From an uncultured Opitutia bacterium (GTDB lineage: Bacteria; Verrucomicrobiota; Verrucomicrobiia; Opitutales; Opitutaceae), in assembly GCA_903900845.1 (NCBI GenBank), contig CAIUOU010000074.1, forward strand, positions 1-44,998: a stretch of DNA of 44,998 bases, written 5' to 3'. A program made the translations under genes and the position numbers. Below are positions 1 to 6,681 of the stretch, piece after piece. The notes under the pieces were generated by a model. The model was not told where the DNA came from, ran no database searches, and saw only the letters and a list, made by a program, of their open reading frames with translations. Numbering within the stretch: position 1 is the stretch's first letter; the number at the start of each line of letters is the position of its first letter.

Positions 1-557
1 ATGAGGGCGCGTCGCGCCATTTCCGTGGATGTGTGGGTGAAGGCGGCGTGCTCCAGTTTGTCCCGCAGCCACCAGTCACCCCCGTGCTCGAAGATGTCGT
101 AGGCGTGGGCGGCGGCGCTGAAGCTGTGCCCGTCGATGCGCCAAAGGAGCCACGCCGCCGTGGCGGGCCCGCCACCCCAGGCGGCGTGGATGTGGTCGGG
201 CGGATCGCGGCGAAACTCCCGCGCCACCACGCAAGCGAAGCCGGCGCCGAGCATGTTTTCCCAGAAGTTGAGCCACGACGGCGCCCGACGGGTGAAAAGG
301 CCCTGGAGCAGCTGGCGCAGGACCGCGGGCCGCCGCGAGGCCTCATAGGCTATGAGCCAGAAAAGCGTGAGCAGGCGCCACTTGTTGAAGCGCTGGACCG
401 GCAGGCCGCGGAAGGAAGCTCCGCCGCCCCAGAGCGAGTAGATCCGCATCCTCACCCCGAGGCCCTTCATCGCCACGATCTCCCGCTGCAGGAAGGTCTC
501 CGTGCCCTTGGGGAAGGTGGTGAAGAAGTAGGCGATGACAGGCGATTCGGCGGGCAA
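1..557 (-). CDS. Glycosyltransferase family 4, N-terminal part (3' end outside window)
   Basis: The minus strand reads open from about 557 to the window edge, giving 185 residues of an incomplete protein. The translation has the GT-B N-terminal signature of exopolysaccharide-type GT4 enzymes: an early IAYFFTTFPKGTETFLQREI segment, then HIHAAWGGGPATAAWL and FSAAAHAYDIFEHGGDWW, matching the acceptor-side 'H.H.A.G...A.........S.TAHA.DIF' pattern of WcaL/colanic-acid-like transferases. The UDP-sugar-binding C-terminal half is missing. An in-frame TAG lies just upstream, and the only early initiation codon is TTG at 555-557, so a TTG start is likely but weakly supported because no strong Shine-Dalgarno is seen. 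It follows the MGDG-synthase-like gene by 60 bases and is probably the last visible gene of the same transcript. It most likely adds a sugar to a lipid or polymer; donor and acceptor cannot be read from sequence. Confidence 0.8.
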   Translation of the reverse strand, partial: MPAESPVIAYFFTTFPKGTETFLQREIVAMKGLGVRMRIYSLWGGGASFRGLPVQRFNKWRLLTLFWLIAYEASRRPAVLRQLLQGLFTRRAPSWLNFWENMLGAGFACVVAREFRRDPPDHIHAAWGGGPATAAWLLWRIDGHSFSAAAHAYDIFEHGGDWWLRDKLEHAAFTHTSTEMARRAL

Positions 558-617
558 GATCCCGATTCGCTAGCAGTCCGGAACCGCGGGAGACAGCGCT
601 TTTTTGCGCGCCGCGGT

Positions 618-1814
618 TCAGGGCGGGAAGGAACGCCGTCGCAGGGAGGCGCCCGCCACCGAGTTGGCGAGCGCGACGAGTTCGTCGATCACGACGGTCG
701 GATCCTCATCGTGGCGGAGACGCAGGAAATGGTCGCGGACGCGCGCGTAGGCGGCGGGCTCGGCCATCCAAGTATCGATGATCCGGGTGAAATCCGCGGC
801 GTCCTCGATCTTTTCGCAGGCGGCGCCGTTGCGGAAGAACTTCCACGTGAGCCGCTCCTGCGGCATGATGCCGCCGAAGGCGTTGAAGATGATCGGGCAG
901 CTGAAGTGCAGGGCCTTGGCGCAGGTGGTGGTGCCGCCGCGCGTGACGATTGCGTCGCTCGCCTGCATGAGCAGGTGCACATCCTCGGAGTAGCCCTGGA
1001 TGTGGCAGGGAAACTCGGGATGTTCCGAGCGCCAGTGAATGAGCTGGTTATAGGCCTCGCGGTTGCGCCCGCAGATGACGATCGCCTGGACGCGGTCGGC
1101 GTGGCGGACGAGGGCGGGAAGGAGTTCCGCGTGGTTGTTGGCCCCGTTGGCCCCGGTGGCGAGGAAGACGGTGAAGCGGTCAGGCTCGAGTCCCAGGACG
1201 TTGCGACGGTAGGTCCGCCGCTCCGCGCTTCCGAGTACCTCGAGGTGGGAGCGCGGGAGCATCAGGTGGCCGCGGACGCGCGCGCGTGCGGGCGGGAGGC
1301 CGCACTTCACCGCGTAGTCGCGCGCGGTCGGGGTGCGCGAGATATAGAGGTCGGCGGTGGGCTCGATCCAGTTGCGCGAATAACCCCAACCGCCCGAGAA
1401 TTCGCCGCAGTAAGTGGCGCAACGCACCGCGTTTTCCCCGAGGATTCGGCGCGCCTCCTGGAAATAGCCGCGGTTGAGACAGTCGTGGACGCTGAAGACG
1501 AGATGCGGGCGGTACTCCCGGATCACGCTTCCGTAGTAGGATCCGCCGATGCTGACGGACCGGTGGTTAAGGTAGCTCAGGACCTCGACCGCGGTGTAGA
1601 ACAACGTGTGCACCCACGGCGCGCGGCGCTGGATCAGGTTGTAGAGGCTCACCCCGCCCCGGTGCACGAGGGAGGATTTTTCCAGCATCTGCTCGATGCG
1701 GACGTCCAACTCGTGCCCGTACAGTTGGAAGCACCATTCCGCGAAAGCCTCGGCGCGGGCGTCGTGGCCGCCGCCGGTGCTGGAAGTCAGGACGAGGATA
1801 CGGACTTTCGCCAT
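618..1814 (-). CDS. MGDG-synthase/MurG-like glycosyltransferase (GT28 type)
   Basis: This 398-residue protein begins with ILVLTSSTGGGHDARAEAF. The GGGH motif at residues 14-17 marks the monogalactosyldiacylglycerol synthase N-terminal domain (as in UgtP and plant MGD enzymes). The C-terminal half has the nucleotide-sugar site: VFLATGANGANNHAELLPAL, then a CGRN strand and DAIVTRGGTTTCAKAL, where the usual glutamate after GGT(T) is replaced by Cys-Ala. Family members transfer glucose or galactose from a UDP-sugar to diacylglycerol or a related lipid at the cytoplasmic face of the inner membrane. It lies 7 bases after the short-chain reductase gene in a ketosynthase/ACP operon, so the acceptor may be a product of that operon rather than ordinary diacylglycerol. 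Fold and class are secure; substrate is inferred. Confidence 0.85.
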   Translation of the reverse strand: MAKVRILVLTSSTGGGHDARAEAFAEWCFQLYGHELDVRIEQMLEKSSLVHRGGVSLYNLIQRRAPWVHTLFYTAVEVLSYLNHRSVSIGGSYYGSVIREYRPHLVFSVHDCLNRGYFQEARRILGENAVRCATYCGEFSGGWGYSRNWIEPTADLYISRTPTARDYAVKCGLPPARARVRGHLMLPRSHLEVLGSAERRTYRRNVLGLEPDRFTVFLATGANGANNHAELLPALVRHADRVQAIVICGRNREAYNQLIHWRSEHPEFPCHIQGYSEDVHLLMQASDAIVTRGGTTTCAKALHFSCPIIFNAFGGIMPQERLTWKFFRNGAACEKIEDAADFTRIIDTWMAEPAAYARVRDHFLRLRHDEDPTVVIDELVALANSVAGASLRRRSFPP

Positions 1815-1821
1815 GCGGTGC

Positions 1822-2658
1822 TCAGTCGAGGCCGAAATAACGCGTCTGGATCCGGCGGCTCAGCGCCAGCGGTGCGAGCCGGGCGAGCAGGGGTCCCGCG
1901 ACGGCCTGGAAAAACCGTCCGGTGCGCACCGTGGCGGAGCGATGACGCAGCAAGGCACGGCGCAGCGCGGCGGCGGCGTGGTCGGGAGGCGGCCCCGAGC
2001 GCATCATTTTCCCGAACGCCGCCCACGCGCGCCTGGCGCCCGGCGCCTCCGCTCCGGGCAGTCGCGCGACGGCGCCCTCGAAATCAGTACGGTAGTCTCC
2101 GGGGCGCACATCGAGCACGATCACACCCGTGCCGCGCGTCTCGACCATCAGGCTTTCGCTCAGGGCAGAAAGGCCCGCCTTGGCCATGTTGTAGGCTGGC
2201 TGGAAGGGCAGCGGGAACTCGGCGGCTAGGGAGGAGATATTGACCAGCGCCCCGTGACCGCGGACGAGCATGCCGGGGAGGGCGGCGTGGGCGAGTGCCG
2301 CGGTGTGGACCAGCATCACTTCCAGTTGGTCCCGCCAAACGGCGAAATCGGCGGCCGCGAAACCTCCGAAGGCTCCGTAGCCCGCGTTGTTAACCACGAG
2401 ATCGAATCCGCCGGCTGATTCCTCCGCCGTACGGAACGCCGCGACCGCGGCGTTGGCGTCGCGGAGGTCGAGGGCCACCGGGAAGAAGCTCCCCGGATGA
2501 GCCGCCGCCGTTCCAGCCAGTCGCGCTGTTTCGCGGGAGGTTCCCCAGACCCGCACGCCCTCCGCCAGCAGCATTTCGGCGAAGGCGCGCCCCAACCCGG
2601 TGCTCGCCCCCGTCACGAACGCGGCGCGGTGCAACTCGGAGACGCGGGTCGCGGCCAC
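1822..2658 (-). CDS. Short-chain dehydrogenase/reductase
   Basis: A 278-residue classical SDR. The NAD(P)-binding TGASTGLG motif is at residues 16-23, a VVNNAGYG segment stabilises the Rossmann core, and the catalytic triad is present as ISS (Ser) and YNMAK (Tyr and Lys). A C-terminal extension of about 60 residues with hydrophobic stretches goes beyond FabG-type reductases and resembles membrane-associated lipid-acting SDRs. Translation starts at GTG, 3 bases after the ketosynthase stop, indicating translational coupling. In this locus it may be the ketoreductase for 3-ketoacyl intermediates made by the neighbouring ketosynthase, since no FabG is visible nearby. A ketosphinganine-reductase-like or sugar-lipid role cannot be excluded. 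Confidence 0.85.
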   Translation of the reverse strand: MAATRVSELHRAAFVTGASTGLGRAFAEMLLAEGVRVWGTSRETARLAGTAAAHPGSFFPVALDLRDANAAVAAFRTAEESAGGFDLVVNNAGYGAFGGFAAADFAVWRDQLEVMLVHTAALAHAALPGMLVRGHGALVNISSLAAEFPLPFQPAYNMAKAGLSALSESLMVETRGTGVIVLDVRPGDYRTDFEGAVARLPGAEAPGARRAWAAFGKMMRSGPPPDHAAAALRRALLRHRSATVRTGRFFQAVAGPLLARLAPLALSRRIQTRYFGLD

Positions 2659-2661
2659 GGC

Positions 2662-3924
2662 TCAGGCGACCCGCCGGTAGACCAGCGCGACGTTTGCTCC
2701 GCCGAAGCCGCTGCTGTTCTTCAGCGCGATCCTCGGGGCGCGGTCCTCGGTGGTCCGCGGGAGATTCAGCCCGGCGCATTCGGGGTCGGGGCGCGTCAGA
2801 TGCGCGTTCCCCGGGACGAAGCCGTTCCGCAGCGCCAGGCAGCAGAACGCGCTCTCCATGGCGCCGGCGAGGGACAAGCCGTGGCCGGTAAGGGCCTTGG
2901 TGCTGCTCACGGCGACCCGTGGCAGCGCCTCGCCGAACATCGACTTCAAGGCCCGCGCCTCGGAGATGTCGCCGATCAGGGTCGAGGTGGCGTGCGCGTT
3001 GACGTAGTCGACATCGGCCACCGCGGTTCCCGCGTGCCGGAGGGCGTTTCGCATCGCCATCAGCAGGCCTTGGCCGTCGGGGTGGGAGATGGCGACATTG
3101 TGCCCATCCGATGCCTGGCCCCAACCGACCAGCTCCGCGTAGGGTTTCACGCCGCGGCGCGCGACCTCCTCCTCCGTTTCCAGGACCAGCACGGTGGCGC
3201 CCCCGGTGCCGACGAAGCCGTCGCGCGCGGCGTCGAAAGGCCGCGAGGCGAGGTTCGGATCGTTTTGCAGGGAGAGCGTGCGCATACCCGCGAAAGGCAG
3301 GATGGCGTCGTTGTTGCCGTCCTCCGCCCCGACGATGAACATCCGCTTTTGCCGGCCGAGTTGCAGATCATCGAGGGCGAAACCGATCGCGTGGGCCGAT
3401 GACGCGCAGGCGGAGGAGAATCCACCGGAGGACCCCTTGATGCGGAACGCCGCGACGAGGTTGAAGTTCAGCGTGCCTACAATCGATGCCACGATGCCCA
3501 GCGGGGAGCAGCGCATCACGCCGACCTTGAGCAGTCGTTCGTGGTGAAAGTGGGTGAGGAACGGGGACCCGCCGGAGGCCGCGTAAAGTCCCGTGTCGGG
3601 GTTCGAAACATCCGCCTCCGATAGTCGCGCGTCCTCCAGGGCCTGGAGCATCGCGCAATGGGCAAAGAGCCCGTTGGGCGCCATCGAGCGCAGTAGTTCC
3701 CGCTTGATCCGGTACCGCTCCGGGAAAGTCCAATCCTCCGGATCGCCCGACTCGGTGTTGAAGCCCTTGACGGTACCGACGACCTTGCAGGGTATCTCCG
3801 GCTTCTGGAAAGGCGGGTAAAGTTCAAACCCGTGCCGGAGGGCGCGAAGGTTGGCGGTGACGGTGGCGGCGTCGTTGCCGATGCTGGTGACGAAGCCGAG
3901 ACCGGTGATGAAGACTCGAGGCAT
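2662..3924 (-). CDS. Beta-ketoacyl-ACP synthase, KAS I/FabB-like
   Basis: This 420-residue condensing enzyme shows the full Cys-His-His catalytic set. Nucleophile Cys173 lies in SSACASSAHA, His311 in VNAHATSTLIGD and His348 in STKALTGHGLSLAGAMES. The last two motifs resemble FabB (KAS I) more than FabF. It catalyses decarboxylative condensation of malonyl-ACP with an acyl-ACP in the cytoplasm. It lies directly downstream of the fused ACP-dehydratase gene and 3 bases before the reductase, so the operon encodes a carrier, condensation, reduction and dehydration module without a malonyl transferase. The insertion around residues 31-75 before the first conserved helix is longer than in E. coli FabB. 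The ATG at 3922-3924 is preceded one base upstream by a perfect hairpin that may limit translation. Assignment to the KAS family is firm; whether it serves primary or specialised lipid synthesis is inferred. Confidence 0.92.
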   Translation of the reverse strand: MPRVFITGLGFVTSIGNDAATVTANLRALRHGFELYPPFQKPEIPCKVVGTVKGFNTESGDPEDWTFPERYRIKRELLRSMAPNGLFAHCAMLQALEDARLSEADVSNPDTGLYAASGGSPFLTHFHHERLLKVGVMRCSPLGIVASIVGTLNFNLVAAFRIKGSSGGFSSACASSAHAIGFALDDLQLGRQKRMFIVGAEDGNNDAILPFAGMRTLSLQNDPNLASRPFDAARDGFVGTGGATVLVLETEEEVARRGVKPYAELVGWGQASDGHNVAISHPDGQGLLMAMRNALRHAGTAVADVDYVNAHATSTLIGDISEARALKSMFGEALPRVAVSSTKALTGHGLSLAGAMESAFCCLALRNGFVPGNAHLTRPDPECAGLNLPRTTEDRAPRIALKNSSGFGGANVALVYRRVA

Positions 3925-3925
3925 G

Positions 3926-3948
3926 ATTTTCCGCGCGGGGCGGAAAAT
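3926..3948 (-). promoter_or_regulatory. Perfect 9-bp hairpin just upstream of the ketosynthase start codon
   Basis: Plus-strand arms ATTTTCCGC (3926-3934) and GCGGAAAAT (3940-3948) are exact inverted repeats around a 5-base loop. In the minus-strand mRNA the stem ends one base before the ATG of the ketosynthase and covers the position where a Shine-Dalgarno would lie. It sits in the 49-base gap after the ACP-dehydratase stop codon. It could reduce ketosynthase translation, protect or process the upstream ACP message, or attenuate read-through. There is no classical U-tract, so simple intrinsic termination is less likely. Confidence 0.55.
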
Positions 3949-3973
3949 TGGGGGCGCGTCGGCCCGGAGGCAA

Positions 3974-4957
3974 CTAGGCGTTGATGGCCGCGCGGAGCGG
4001 GGTGGTGGACGGGGCCGCCTCCGTGCTCACGGCGGGAGGCACGTCGGCGTTGCCGTTGATCGGCACCGGCGCGTTAGCGGCGTCCACGAAACCGTAGGTA
4101 AGAGTGAGCTCCTCCACGATGACGGCCTTATCCTGACCCACGCGGATAGCCCCCTCGAAGGTAGCGAGGGGCATCTTCATGCGCTTGGGCTTGATCGAGA
4201 GGGTGAGGATCTCGCCGGGTTTGCAAATCCGGTGGGCGCGCACGCCCTCGCACCCGGTGAAGAAAATCGTCTGCGGGCTGACCACCTTGCCCGGCTCGGT
4301 CGGCGCACCCTCCAGCAAGTAGAGCACCCCCAGTTGCCCTAGCGCCTCGAGCATGATCGAGGCGGGCATGACCGGGTTATCCTTGAAGTGGCCCTGAAGG
4401 AAGAACTCCTGACCGGTGATCTTGTACTTGCCGTTAGCCGACGTCGAACTGACCGATGCCTCGTTGAGGAAAAGGAACGGAGGCTGAATCGGCATCACGG
4501 TGCCGATGTGCTCGATGGGGAGGAACTTCGTCGGTTTGGGCAGCGGCAGGCCGCGAATCTTGCAGTCGATGAAGGTCTTCACGTCACCCACCGTGCGCAG
4601 GTTGCGGAGTTCCTCGTTGTTGATCGACATCTGGAGGACGTCCTCCACGAGGATGACGATCTCCATCATGGTGAGCGAATCGATCCCTAGATCCTCGATG
4701 AGACGTAGATCGTCGTCGGCATCCTTCAGTTTGATCCGCAGGTCGGGCTCTACAAAACGCTCGATCACCCCGATCACCACCGCCGGAACATGTTCGGCAT
4801 TATTGGTTTTACGAAACTGGACAGCTGCCTCGAAGGTCGACGGGGAGCAGCGCTTCAGGGACTCGCGGAGGGCTGTCTCGTCCTCGGGACCGAACGGTTT
4901 GTGCGCCGTGACCGGCGATTTGTTCGCGCCCGGGCTGGTGGGAACTCCTTCTGACAT
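3974..4957 (-). CDS. Fused acyl carrier protein - FabZ-like 3-hydroxyacyl-ACP dehydratase
   Basis: This 327-residue protein combines two fatty-acid synthesis activities. Residues about 55-135 form an acyl carrier domain with LIEDLGIDSLTMMEI, where Ser94 is the expected phosphopantetheine attachment site. Residues about 147-292 form a hotdog dehydratase with MPIQPPFLFLNE and FFLQGHFKDNPVMPASIMLE, carrying the FabZ catalytic pair His190 and Glu204 (FabA would have Asp). The N-terminal 50 and C-terminal 35 residues look disordered and Pro/Ala/Thr-rich. The frame is open upstream to 5161, but that would cross the divergent GT4 start and encode an atypical basic segment, so ATG at 4955-4957 is preferred. 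It is first in a minus-strand operon with the ketosynthase, reductase and glycosyltransferases. Tethering ACP to the dehydratase suggests a dedicated carrier for this pathway. Confidence 0.88.
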   Translation of the reverse strand: MSEGVPTSPGANKSPVTAHKPFGPEDETALRESLKRCSPSTFEAAVQFRKTNNAEHVPAVVIGVIERFVEPDLRIKLKDADDDLRLIEDLGIDSLTMMEIVILVEDVLQMSINNEELRNLRTVGDVKTFIDCKIRGLPLPKPTKFLPIEHIGTVMPIQPPFLFLNEASVSSTSANGKYKITGQEFFLQGHFKDNPVMPASIMLEALGQLGVLYLLEGAPTEPGKVVSPQTIFFTGCEGVRAHRICKPGEILTLSIKPKRMKMPLATFEGAIRVGQDKAVIVEELTLTYGFVDAANAPVPINGNADVPPAVSTEAAPSTTPLRAAINA

Positions 4958-5111
4958 TGTGGATGTTTTGTAAGTTACGGTAGCCGGCAAAGTAAACCCC
5001 TTAATTCTGTAAAGCCGGTAACGTGCCAAGCGCGCTTGCCTCGCGGCGAGTGCCTTCGCTTGATGCGGTCCCGATCCAAGCGGCCCGCGCCCGCGACGCC
5101 GCGATCCTTGC
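4958..5111. promoter_or_regulatory. Divergent promoter region between the lipid operon and the GT4/thioesterase pair
   Basis: This 154-base gap separates two divergent start codons. The half next to the ACP-dehydratase gene is clearly AT-richer than the surroundings. On the minus strand a TTGGCA hexamer is followed 17 bases later by AATTAA, and further on TTTACT is followed 17 bases later by TTACAA; either could be a sigma-70-like promoter for the lipid operon. Assignments are by eye and weak. The plus-strand promoter for the GT4 gene is not recognisable. Confidence 0.4.
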
Positions 5112-6281
5112 ATGAGACTTTCCTCGACCGCCGCCGGCTTTGAACCGGTCACCCTGATCACCCACGAGTTTTATCCTCGGCGGGGCGGGATCGCCACGTT
5201 CGCGGAGGAGATCGCGCGGGCTTCGGCTGATTTGGGGCATGAGGTGGAGGTGTGGGCGCAGGCTGCGCCACCCTCGGCCCGGAAAGCGGATTGGCCCTTC
5301 CAGCTGAGGAGGCTGCCGTTGCGGGGGACGCAGGATTTGAGCTGTCAGTTTCAACTGGCGCGTGAATTGATCCGCCAGCGCCGGCGCTTGCGCCGGGGCA
5401 CGGTTTACCTGCCGGAGCCGGGGCCGATGCTCACGATGATGCTGCTGCAGTTCTTCCGGGCTTTCCGCCCGCAGCGGCTCGTGCTCACTTTCCACGGCTC
5501 CGAGATCCTCTCCTTCGCCGCCAGTCCGCTCCGCCGACGGTTGGCCGGAGGCCTCATCCGCCGGGCGACGCGGGTGAGCACGCTGAGCACCTACACCCAG
5601 GAACTGCTGCTCGATCATTTTCCGGGGGCCGCCGACAAGATAACCCTCACTCCGGGGGCGCTTCGGTCGGATTTCGCGGTGGTGGCGCCGCGGCAGCGCG
5701 CCCCGCGGGAAAAGGTAGTGATCCTCACGGTAGGCCGTCTTCATCCCCGCAAGGGCCAGCTGCAGACCCTGGAGGCGCTCCAGGCCTTGCCGGCCAGCGT
5801 CCGCTCCCGCCTCGAGTACTGGATCGCCGGCGGCCAAAGCAAAGGAGGCTACGAGGAGACGCTCCGGGAGCGCGCGGCGGGGTGCCCCGACCTGGCGGTA
5901 CGGTTTTTCGGCAACCTACCGGATGACGAACTGTCGCAGGTGTACGAGGACGCCGACATCTTTGCGATGACCAGCCTGCAGCTCGATCGCAGTGTGGAAG
6001 GCTTCGGATTGGTTTACCTGGAAGCGGCGGCTCATGGATTGCCCGTGGTCGCCCACCACGTCGGCGGAGTCGCCGATGCGGTCGTGGATGGCCGCACCGG
6101 GCTTTTGGTTCCGGAGAACCGGCCCGCTCAGCTCGCCGCCGCGTTCGAGCGCCTGATCCACGAGCGTGATCTCCGTCTACGGCTCGGGGAGGCCGGCCGG
6201 GAATGGGCGCGCCGTAACTGTTGGAAGGCATCGGCCGCGGCGCTCTTCCAGACTGCACCGATGGAGGGCGGCCGTGATTGA
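5112..6281 (+). CDS. Glycosyltransferase family 4
   Basis: This 389-residue GT-B enzyme has the N-terminal acceptor-domain signature ITHEFYPRRGGIATFAEEIA and LTFHGSEIL. In the C-terminal donor domain, VGRLHPRKGQ begins the fold and the EX7E motif appears as E296-GFGLVYL-E304, followed by GLPVVAHHVGG and DGRTGLLV. These are the standard features of retaining GT4 enzymes that use nucleotide sugars at the inner face of the membrane. The ATG at 5112 fits the family's N-terminus. The gene overlaps the thioesterase gene by 8 bases, so both are co-translated. It is divergent from the acyl/glycolipid operon and is the second GT4 protein in the region, which suggests a product carrying more than one sugar. 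Donor and acceptor are unknown. Confidence 0.9.
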   Translation: MRLSSTAAGFEPVTLITHEFYPRRGGIATFAEEIARASADLGHEVEVWAQAAPPSARKADWPFQLRRLPLRGTQDLSCQFQLARELIRQRRRLRRGTVYLPEPGPMLTMMLLQFFRAFRPQRLVLTFHGSEILSFAASPLRRRLAGGLIRRATRVSTLSTYTQELLLDHFPGAADKITLTPGALRSDFAVVAPRQRAPREKVVILTVGRLHPRKGQLQTLEALQALPASVRSRLEYWIAGGQSKGGYEETLRERAAGCPDLAVRFFGNLPDDELSQVYEDADIFAMTSLQLDRSVEGFGLVYLEAAAHGLPVVAHHVGGVADAVVDGRTGLLVPENRPAQLAAAFERLIHERDLRLRLGEAGREWARRNCWKASAAALFQTAPMEGGRD

Positions 6282-6681
6282 GTCTCGCACTCAGGTAACG
6301 GTGCGCTACGCGGAAACCGACATGATGGGCGTCGTTTACCACGGGAACTACCTGCCGTGGTTCGAGGTGGGCCGGACCAACCTCCTGAAGGAGCTCGGGC
6401 TCCCCTACCGCCGGCTGGAGGAGGAGGGGTTCCGGCTTCCCGTCCTGGAGGTCTCGGCCCGCTACCTGCGCCCAGCGATCTACGACGACACCGTCACAAT
6501 AGTGACGCGCCTTTCCGAAAAACCGCTGTTACGCATCCGTCTCGAATACGAGGTGAGGCGTGGCGAGGAGTTGCTCGCGACCGGACACACGGTGCACGCG
6601 TTCATCGACCGTGAGGGGCGTCCGGTGCGCCCGCCGGCCTCGGTGGCGGCGGTCTTCAACACCGCGTTCCGGGCGGCGTAG
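6274..6681 (+). CDS. YbgC/FadM-type acyl-CoA (acyl-ACP) thioesterase
   Basis: A 135-residue single hotdog-fold protein of the 4-hydroxybenzoyl-CoA thioesterase family. The hallmark VRYAETDMMGVVYHGNYLPW carries the catalytic aspartate near residue 14, as in YbgC and FadM. The frame extends further upstream, but a GGAGGG ribosome site at 6263-6268 is well placed for GTG at 6274-6276, which also gives the usual family N-terminus. The start overlaps the end of the GT4 gene by 8 bases. Such enzymes hydrolyse acyl-CoA or acyl-ACP thioesters in the cytoplasm. Beside the ACP/ketosynthase operon it may release a finished acyl chain. Its last 26 bases overlap the convergent queG gene. Confidence 0.88.
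   Translation: MIESRTQVTVRYAETDMMGVVYHGNYLPWFEVGRTNLLKELGLPYRRLEEEGFRLPVLEVSARYLRPAIYDDTVTIVTRLSEKPLLRIRLEYEVRRGEELLATGHTVHAFIDREGRPVRPPASVAAVFNTAFRAA

Follow-up and report, generated by a model that had tools for sequence, protein, structure and literature searches.

The 44,998-nucleotide DNA segment analyzed here (termed "the window") is a complete contig, C74 (CAIUOU010000074.1), of a 4.4 Mb assembly in 205 contigs from an uncultured bacterium of the family Opitutaceae (Verrucomicrobiota). At one end of this contig sits a locus of seven genes, which encode an acyl carrier protein (ACP) fused to a dehydratase (ACP-DH), a beta-ketoacyl-ACP synthase (KAS), a short-chain dehydrogenase/reductase (SDR), a GT28-type glycosyltransferase (GT28), two GT4-type glycosyltransferases (GT4a and GT4b) and a thioesterase. 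From sequence comparisons we favor, with modest confidence, the view that this locus encodes the acyl-chain supply and the sugar-transfer steps of a sphingoid-lipid pathway that some members of the class have conserved. Computed directly are the gene content, the conserved gene order, the co-occurrence and proximity of the locus with a serine palmitoyltransferase (SPT)-type gene in relatives, the placement of that gene in the SPT clade, and the separateness of the locus from housekeeping fatty-acid synthesis. A first-pass annotation of the same DNA had proposed a special acyl chain decorated with sugars. Its dedicated acyl and glycosylation locus stands, but its account of the acceptor was incomplete, which is likely an amino acid introduced by an SPT-type enzyme encoded off this contig. 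A glycosylated sphingoid lipid is a more likely product than a glycolipid of unknown kind.

Conservation of the locus and its SPT-type partner

In many relatives, a gene for a 398-amino-acid alpha-oxoamine synthase lies on the other strand downstream of the last GT4 gene, an arrangement first noticed in locus L045. The host genome carries this SPT-type gene outside the window (C110:48417-49610), and its product is 80% identical to that of the relative G029. A profile of nine such enzymes was searched against the 286 genomes of the class that were also searched for ACP-DH. Its scores are two-peaked, with 51 genomes at 617-769 bits and the rest at 408 bits or less, apart from partial matches at a contig end (G230) and in a broken frame (G283). 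ACP-DH matches at an E value of 1e-25 occur in 66 of the 286 genomes, 58 of them at 184 bits or more and eight being weaker single-domain matches (98-114 bits). When the 58 genomes with ACP-DH are compared with the 53 that have an SPT ortholog, 51 have both, 7 have ACP-DH alone, 2 have SPT alone (G115 and G208) and 226 have neither (Fisher p 4e-46, uncorrected for shared descent). G115, which was scored as having SPT alone, encodes a separate small ACP and a KAS on the contig that also carries SPT, and close to it.

The two genes are frequently close to each other. Among the 51 ACP-DH/SPT pairs, 30 lie on one contig, and in 25 of these 30 the distance is within 15 kb. Even within one genus (g36), two genomes possess both genes (G185 and G294) and two possess neither (G128 and G269). 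A similar comparison of KAS with SPT in 57 relatives yields both genes in 41, KAS alone in five (G024, G035, G051, G055 and G056), SPT alone in three (G019, G037 and G052) and neither in eight (p 1e-4). The SPT-type gene is directly upstream of ACP-DH in L114 and L115, and likewise in L113, where its frame is broken. In L154 (G033) it accompanies SDR, GT28, GT4a and a further GT4-type gene (GT4c), with ACP-DH and KAS on another contig. Adjoining the SPT gene of another locus (L150:4735-8016; similar places exist in other members of that genus) are a PMT_2-type membrane protein and one that is weakly GT87-like (below the GT87 cut-off), which might attach sugars to the same glycolipid.

The gene order itself recurs widely. 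Among the best 80 of 292 relatives, which are near relatives, 59 named loci have at least 7.5 kb of right flank, and 31 of these show the order ACP-DH, KAS, (SDR), GT28, GT4a, GT4c, followed by the SPT-type gene in the opposite orientation. The arrangement is not due to chance, given an order conserved across many genomes. The pathway idea of the first-pass annotation would have been weakened by a gene order that is not conserved, but the order recurs in other Opitutaceae, and the core is also found in other orders of the class. Profile searches on stop-to-stop frames, with score thresholds that we set, were applied to 65 fetched loci, several of whose stretches end at contig ends. ACP-DH is present in 62, KAS in 60, SDR in 39, GT28 in 38, GT4a in 31, GT4b in 36 and the SPT-type gene, within the stretch, in 15. 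This count includes three loci (L136, L053 and L056) in which ACP-DH either matches weakly or lies beyond the fetched stretch, and omits paralogous or isolated KAS loci (L061-L063 and L065-L073), the other KAS loci of the host (L074-L076) and weak single-domain matches (L116 and L133-L135). The 20 loci from orders other than Opitutales include 19 with ACP-DH, 18 with KAS, 15 with SDR and 12 with GT28, the last on the opposite strand, such that the neighborhood is kept but the operon order is not. GT4b, mostly divergent and adjoining ACP-DH, is found in 29 of the 45 Opitutales loci and in 7 of the 20 others, and the thioesterase gene in 25 of 45 and 0 of 20, respectively. KAS matches at an E value of 1e-80 occur in 46 of 57 relatives, a number that at order level may include paralogs. 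In a sample of 387 genomes of the phylum, all 49 ACP-DH matches at an E value of 1e-40 fall within this class.

In two loci of another order (L108:5100-7117 and L109:13506-15534), an aminotransferase and a protein of about 260 amino acids lie between SDR and GT28. The aminotransferase of L108 is of class III and its ∼260-amino-acid protein has no Pfam match, while the L109 pair was judged by place and likeness alone.

The SPT-type protein most resembles known SPTs. Its best NCBIfam match is SerpalmtaseCFB (371 bits), ahead of SPT (338 bits) and BioF (322 bits); the top score is below the curated cut-off of 640 and thus belongs with the adverse points gathered below. The nearest solved relative is the SPT of Sphingobacterium multivorum (3a2b), which scores 309 bits, compared with 264 bits for the best Kbl/BioF-type structure. 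We built a tree of 34 rows, including 26 orthologs chosen from 92 ortholog rows of at least 611 bits. The 26 make up a clade (100/99) within a larger group that also takes in the Sphingobacterium enzyme, Spt of Escherichia coli BL21 and two SPTs that belong to canonical gene sets in relatives. Support of 100/97 separates this larger group from E. coli Kbl and BioF, a Kbl-like enzyme of G029 and chain 8s1y. On this phylogeny, the gene is a member of the SPT clade of alpha-oxoamine synthases.

The pyridoxal phosphate (PLP)-site residues of the Sphingobacterium enzyme, as given in PMC10196870, are mostly kept: Asn52, His138, Asp210, His213 and Lys244 are retained, and Thr241 is replaced by Ser. 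Kbl and BioF share most of these residues, and the enzyme is set apart from them by an S-K-S motif that it has in common with SPTs. It is conceivable, if improbable, that the enzyme uses a different amino acid (cysteate, alanine, glycine or lysine), such that the product would be a sulfonolipid-like, 1-deoxy or other base and not sphinganine. Other substrates have been proposed for Spt-like proteins of environmental bacteria in PMC11334938. The serine-contacting Asn of the Sphingobacterium SPT is kept, but Kbl and BioF have it too; with Thr241 changed to Ser, the substrate is not readable from the sequence. Nonetheless, the SPT-like S-K-S motif and a score of 309 bits to the Sphingobacterium SPT, versus 197 bits to a solved cysteate acyltransferase, speak for serine.

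Genes of the locus and housekeeping fatty-acid synthesis

All seven genes of the first-pass annotation were found where it had placed them, and their families and motifs were confirmed. On the minus strand, ACP-DH (positions 3974-4957; 327 amino acids; PF00550 and PF07977), KAS (2662-3924; PF00109 and PF02801), SDR (1822-2658; PF00106), GT28 (618-1814; PF04101) and GT4a (3-557) follow each other with gaps of 49, 3, 7 and 60 bases. On the plus strand, GT4b (5112-6281; assigned by family match) starts 154 bases from ACP-DH, and its end is overlapped by a YbgC/FadM-type thioesterase gene of the 4HBT family (most likely 6274-6681, assigned by family match, with a start inferred from relatives). 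The next genes, QueG and AroK, are housekeeping neighbors.

KAS is of the FabB/FabF type and retains its ACASS, NAHATST and LTGH motifs, which bears out the intact Cys-His-His triad claimed earlier. Its closest relative in the PDB is KAS I, and NCBIfam scores it slightly higher as FabF (322 bits) than as FabB (307 bits), with both values under their cut-offs. The SDR has intact TGASTGLG and YNMAK motifs and is a candidate 3-keto reductase, acting on either keto-sphinganine or 3-oxoacyl-ACP; its family and PDB matches do not separate keto-sphinganine reductase from FabG. GT28, of the MGDG (monogalactosyldiacylglycerol) synthase/UgtP type, is a candidate for the transferase of the first sugar. 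Its best NCBIfam match, diglucosyl-diacylglycerol synthase, reaches 74.9 bits, far below the cut-off of 500. GT4a is an N-terminal fragment of 185 amino acids truncated by the contig end, whose orthologs in relatives are longer (about 400-420 amino acids); the fragment has no Pfam match of its own and matches NCBIfam EpsE at 35 bits against a cut-off of 400.

The start of ACP-DH was picked by comparison with relatives. The protein has intact GIDSL (ACP) and GHF and LEALGQ (dehydratase) motifs and bears a conserved N-terminal extension, LRESLKRCSPSTFEAAVQFR. Within this extension, residues 24-51 ahead of the ACP domain contain a Cys (KRC motif) that is invariant across 13 diverse rows. The extension is predicted to be helical in an AlphaFold model built from 20 close sequences that is poor overall (mean predicted local distance difference test score, pLDDT, of 56). 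A looser version of the extension is present on small ACPs at paralogous loci.

Proteins that combine a dehydratase with a KAS could simply represent the anaerobic branch to unsaturated fatty acids (of the FabA-FabB or FabN-FabO kind), with the glycosyltransferases as unrelated neighbors. The genes fabA and fabB can indeed be neighbors, the dehydratase and KAS are adjacent here, and the nearest structure to KAS is a KAS I. However, the catalytic His (GHF) and Glu (LEALGQ) are kept in 13 of 13 alignment rows, and His plus Glu is the active-site pair of FabZ, with FabA using Asp as the acid. A PF07977 hot-dog domain with this invariant pair fits the FabZ type, as judged from the alignment. Moreover, 38 of 45 Opitutales loci contain one or more glycosyltransferases of the set, 12 of 20 loci of other orders contain GT28, and a branch serving general lipids is not expected to track SPT. 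We therefore consider this explanation very unlikely.

The locus is also separate from the housekeeping machinery. Three further KAS genes exist elsewhere in the host genome, together with a housekeeping AcpP on C175 (62% identical to E. coli AcpP) and FabD on C157. For this reason, the possibility that the locus is the primary fatty-acid synthase, which would have demanded a genome free of other KAS or ACP genes, was rejected. E. coli AcpP as a query in the window matches the ACP domain of ACP-DH alone, and weakly (27% identity, 24.6 bits). E. coli FabH and FabD have no match in the window (a genome-wide search for FabH was not made). The previously noted absence of fabD and fabH from the locus is thus upheld, whereas that of fabG is functionally insecure, since E. 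coli FabG and the SDR share 29% identity.

In a KAS tree of 39 rows, a single clade of 34 rows (100/100) unites the locus type with its paralogs, apart from E. coli FabB and FabF and the host FabF-type enzymes, a separation that the first-pass annotation had suggested testing for. E. coli FabB adjoins this clade with weak support (80/57), two of the other host KAS proteins group with E. coli FabF (99/97), and the third, from C157, sits on a long branch whose position is uncertain. Together, the separate housekeeping synthesis, the conserved order and the separate KAS clade support the proposal of a dedicated acyl-chain and glycosylation locus. C157 also harbors a second unusual fatty-acid cluster (L076:8834-15016), with a FabF-type KAS, an 87-amino-acid ACP, two CrtI/CrtD-like FAD oxidoreductases, FabZ and FabI. 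It resembles type II fatty-acid synthesis clusters with phytoene-desaturase-like genes that are discussed for anammox bacteria and Desulfotalea in PMC2649909.

Paralogs of the locus KAS occur in another setting. In the same genus, a flexirubin/aryl-polyene-like cluster (L061:5465-19901 and L062) encodes a halogenase-like flavoprotein and a UbiE-like methyltransferase alongside two KAS-related proteins, one paralogous to the locus KAS and the other KAS-like but shortened; families were assigned for L061 alone and extended to L062 via shared gene clusters. Because this cluster has a paralogous KAS and a similar small ACP, the locus might be viewed as the remnant of a pigment (aryl polyene or flexirubin) cluster, although we find this scarcely credible. 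Clusters of that kind encode a chain-length factor, aryl starter enzymes, a halogenase and an exporter, none of which is among the window genes scanned, and the paralogs, including that of L061, form a separate branch of nine rows (100/100).

Exceptions and the lipid A alternative

A number of observations weigh against a role of the locus in sphingoid-lipid synthesis. The host SPT gene lies on another contig (C110), and the host assembly thus shows no physical link between it and the locus. An SPT ortholog is lacking in 7 of the 58 ACP-DH genomes (G051, G055, G056, G088, G099, G217 and G261), two of which, G088 and G099, are 85% and 74% complete. G056 has GT28 and GT4a beside ACP-DH and KAS (L064), and G024, with ACP-DH, KAS, GT28 and GT4b (L043), has no SPT match, so members of the glycosyltransferase set can be retained where SPT is missing. 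In G055, G217 and G261 (L059, L125 and L126), the ACP and dehydratase are in separate frames, and in G051 (L057) a dehydratase alone stands beside KAS, with a 3-deoxy-D-manno-octulosonic acid (Kdo) transferase as the next gene. In none of these four loci was a glycosyltransferase of the set seen, and thus the module can serve something else there. The SDR has no match at an E value of 1e-25 in 8 of 24 genomes (G023, G024, G025, G038, G039, G051, G053 and G055), five of which (G023, G025, G038, G039 and G053) carry an SPT ortholog.

Known ceramide genes were also largely missing when proteins of the sphingolipid gene set of E. coli BL21(DE3), as presented in PMC9386255, were used as queries. 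The ceramide synthase bCerS (yghO) has no match at an E value of 0.001 in the host or in G029, and matches in 7 of 57 relatives. CerR has no match at 1e-15 in the host, and 9 of 57 relatives have matches that are mostly weak, being strong in G034 alone and moderate in G012. No match to bCerS was found in 80 fetched loci, nor to E. coli BL21 AasR or AcpR at 1e-8 in the same loci (whole genomes were not searched for AasR). Because bCerS and CerR, two defining features of the described pathway, were sought in the host and not found, we do not class the locus with the canonical ceramide gene set, and a canonical ceramide operon was rejected as its identity. The SDR may stand in for CerR. Besides the conserved locus, G034 (L261, contig C13) and G012 (L262, contig C350) each carry, on a single contig, an extra SPT-like gene together with bCerS and CerR. 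Of the two extra SPTs, one groups with the E. coli enzyme and the other with that of Sphingobacterium, which suggests that these sets in two Opitutaceae could be separate acquisitions.

The exceptions without SPT lower our confidence in the sphingoid reading and raise that in another one, in which the product of the locus is an unusual acyl chain (very long or hydroxylated) destined for lipid A or a different glycolipid, with the SPT-type gene belonging to a linked but separate pathway. The rhizobial acpXL-fabZXL-fabFXL cluster for very long chains comprises the same kinds of enzymes (a dedicated ACP, FabZ, KAS and a dehydrogenase) outside the housekeeping operon, plus a lipid A acyltransferase. 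Lipid A is probably made by these bacteria, as LpxC is present in 24 of 24 genomes tested. KAS adjoins the Kdo transferase in L057, and one of the seven ACP-DH genomes that lack SPT, G056, retains two glycosyltransferases of the set. Conversely, no acyltransferase is among the eight window proteins scanned, and glycosyltransferases and, in many relatives, SPT are present instead. PlsC-type genes were found near L105 and L115, the loci scanned for them. An SPT ortholog is present in 51 of the 58 ACP-DH genomes versus 2 of the 228 others. We regard the lipid A alternative as unlikely, albeit not negligible. A glycolipid that replaces lipopolysaccharide was rejected, given the LpxC genes noted above.

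A putative pathway and its relation to known systems

Under the sphingoid reading that we prefer, KAS and the dehydratase would assemble or modify an acyl chain while it is carried by the dedicated ACP domain, with the starter, malonyl and enoyl-reductase steps presumably borrowed from housekeeping type II fatty-acid synthesis. The acyl-ACP would then be passed to the SPT-type alpha-oxoamine synthase, which might condense the chain with an amino acid, most likely serine. The SDR would reduce the 3-keto group, and GT28 and the GT4 enzymes would add sugars, perhaps two or more, the reaction class being suggested by family and the acceptor by linkage. Since the dedicated ACP is joined to a dehydratase and accompanied by a KAS of its own, the chain would be built or finished on the carrier and then given to SPT. 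It is also possible, but quite doubtful, that the fused dehydratase hands trans-2-enoyl-ACP to SPT before enoyl reduction. With serine as the partner, SPT would yield a 3-keto base that has its 4,5-trans double bond from the outset, and the bacteria would end up with true sphingosine in place of dihydrosphingosine, needing no oxygen-dependent desaturase. Such a hand-over would explain why a condensing enzyme and a dehydratase accompany their own ACP, yet the module has no enoyl reductase.

Similar use of a carrier protein has been demonstrated experimentally in Rhodobacteria, wherein a specialized ACP, which AasR loads with free fatty acid, donates the acyl chain to SPT (PMC9386255). The ceramide pathway of that group (Spt, AcpR, AasR, CerR and bCerS, in E. 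coli BL21(DE3) and Caulobacter) shares with our locus an SPT-type enzyme, a dedicated ACP and the clustering of genes. In contrast, the ACP here is fused to a dehydratase and has its own KAS, a GT28/GT4 set is attached, the SPT falls in a separate clade, and no match to AasR, AcpR or bCerS turned up in the 80 fetched loci, with bCerS matched in 7 of 57 relatives. SPTs of Bacteroidetes are described as users of acyl-CoA (PMC11324152), whereas the SPT-type gene studied here has a dedicated ACP module as a conserved neighbor. The window GT28 matches the MGDG synthase MGD1 (58.7 bits) and processive diacylglycerol glucosyltransferase (55.0 bits) of the GT28 family, far under curated cut-offs, and its acceptor may be a sphingoid lipid.

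Bacterial sphingolipids are increasingly predicted from SPT homologs, and SPT-like proteins have already been published for Verrucomicrobiota, in 22 Black Sea genomes, according to PMC11334938. Our search of open-license papers returned no description of a sphingolipid locus for Verrucomicrobiota, nor of one that combines a dedicated ACP-DH and KAS with a GT28/GT4 set. If the proposed pathway is correct, part of the class makes glycosylated sphingoid lipids via a dedicated acyl-ACP module instead of the AasR recycling route. N-acylation, if it occurs, would then be carried out by enzymes other than the known ones, and the gene set would be a starting point in the hunt for a ceramide synthase. 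The locus would also point to the uncultured bacteria that produce lipids of this kind, and the proposed formation of sphingosine from enoyl-ACP would be directly testable. These organisms would thus maintain a small fatty-acid machinery of their own where better-known bacteria recycle ready-made fatty acids.

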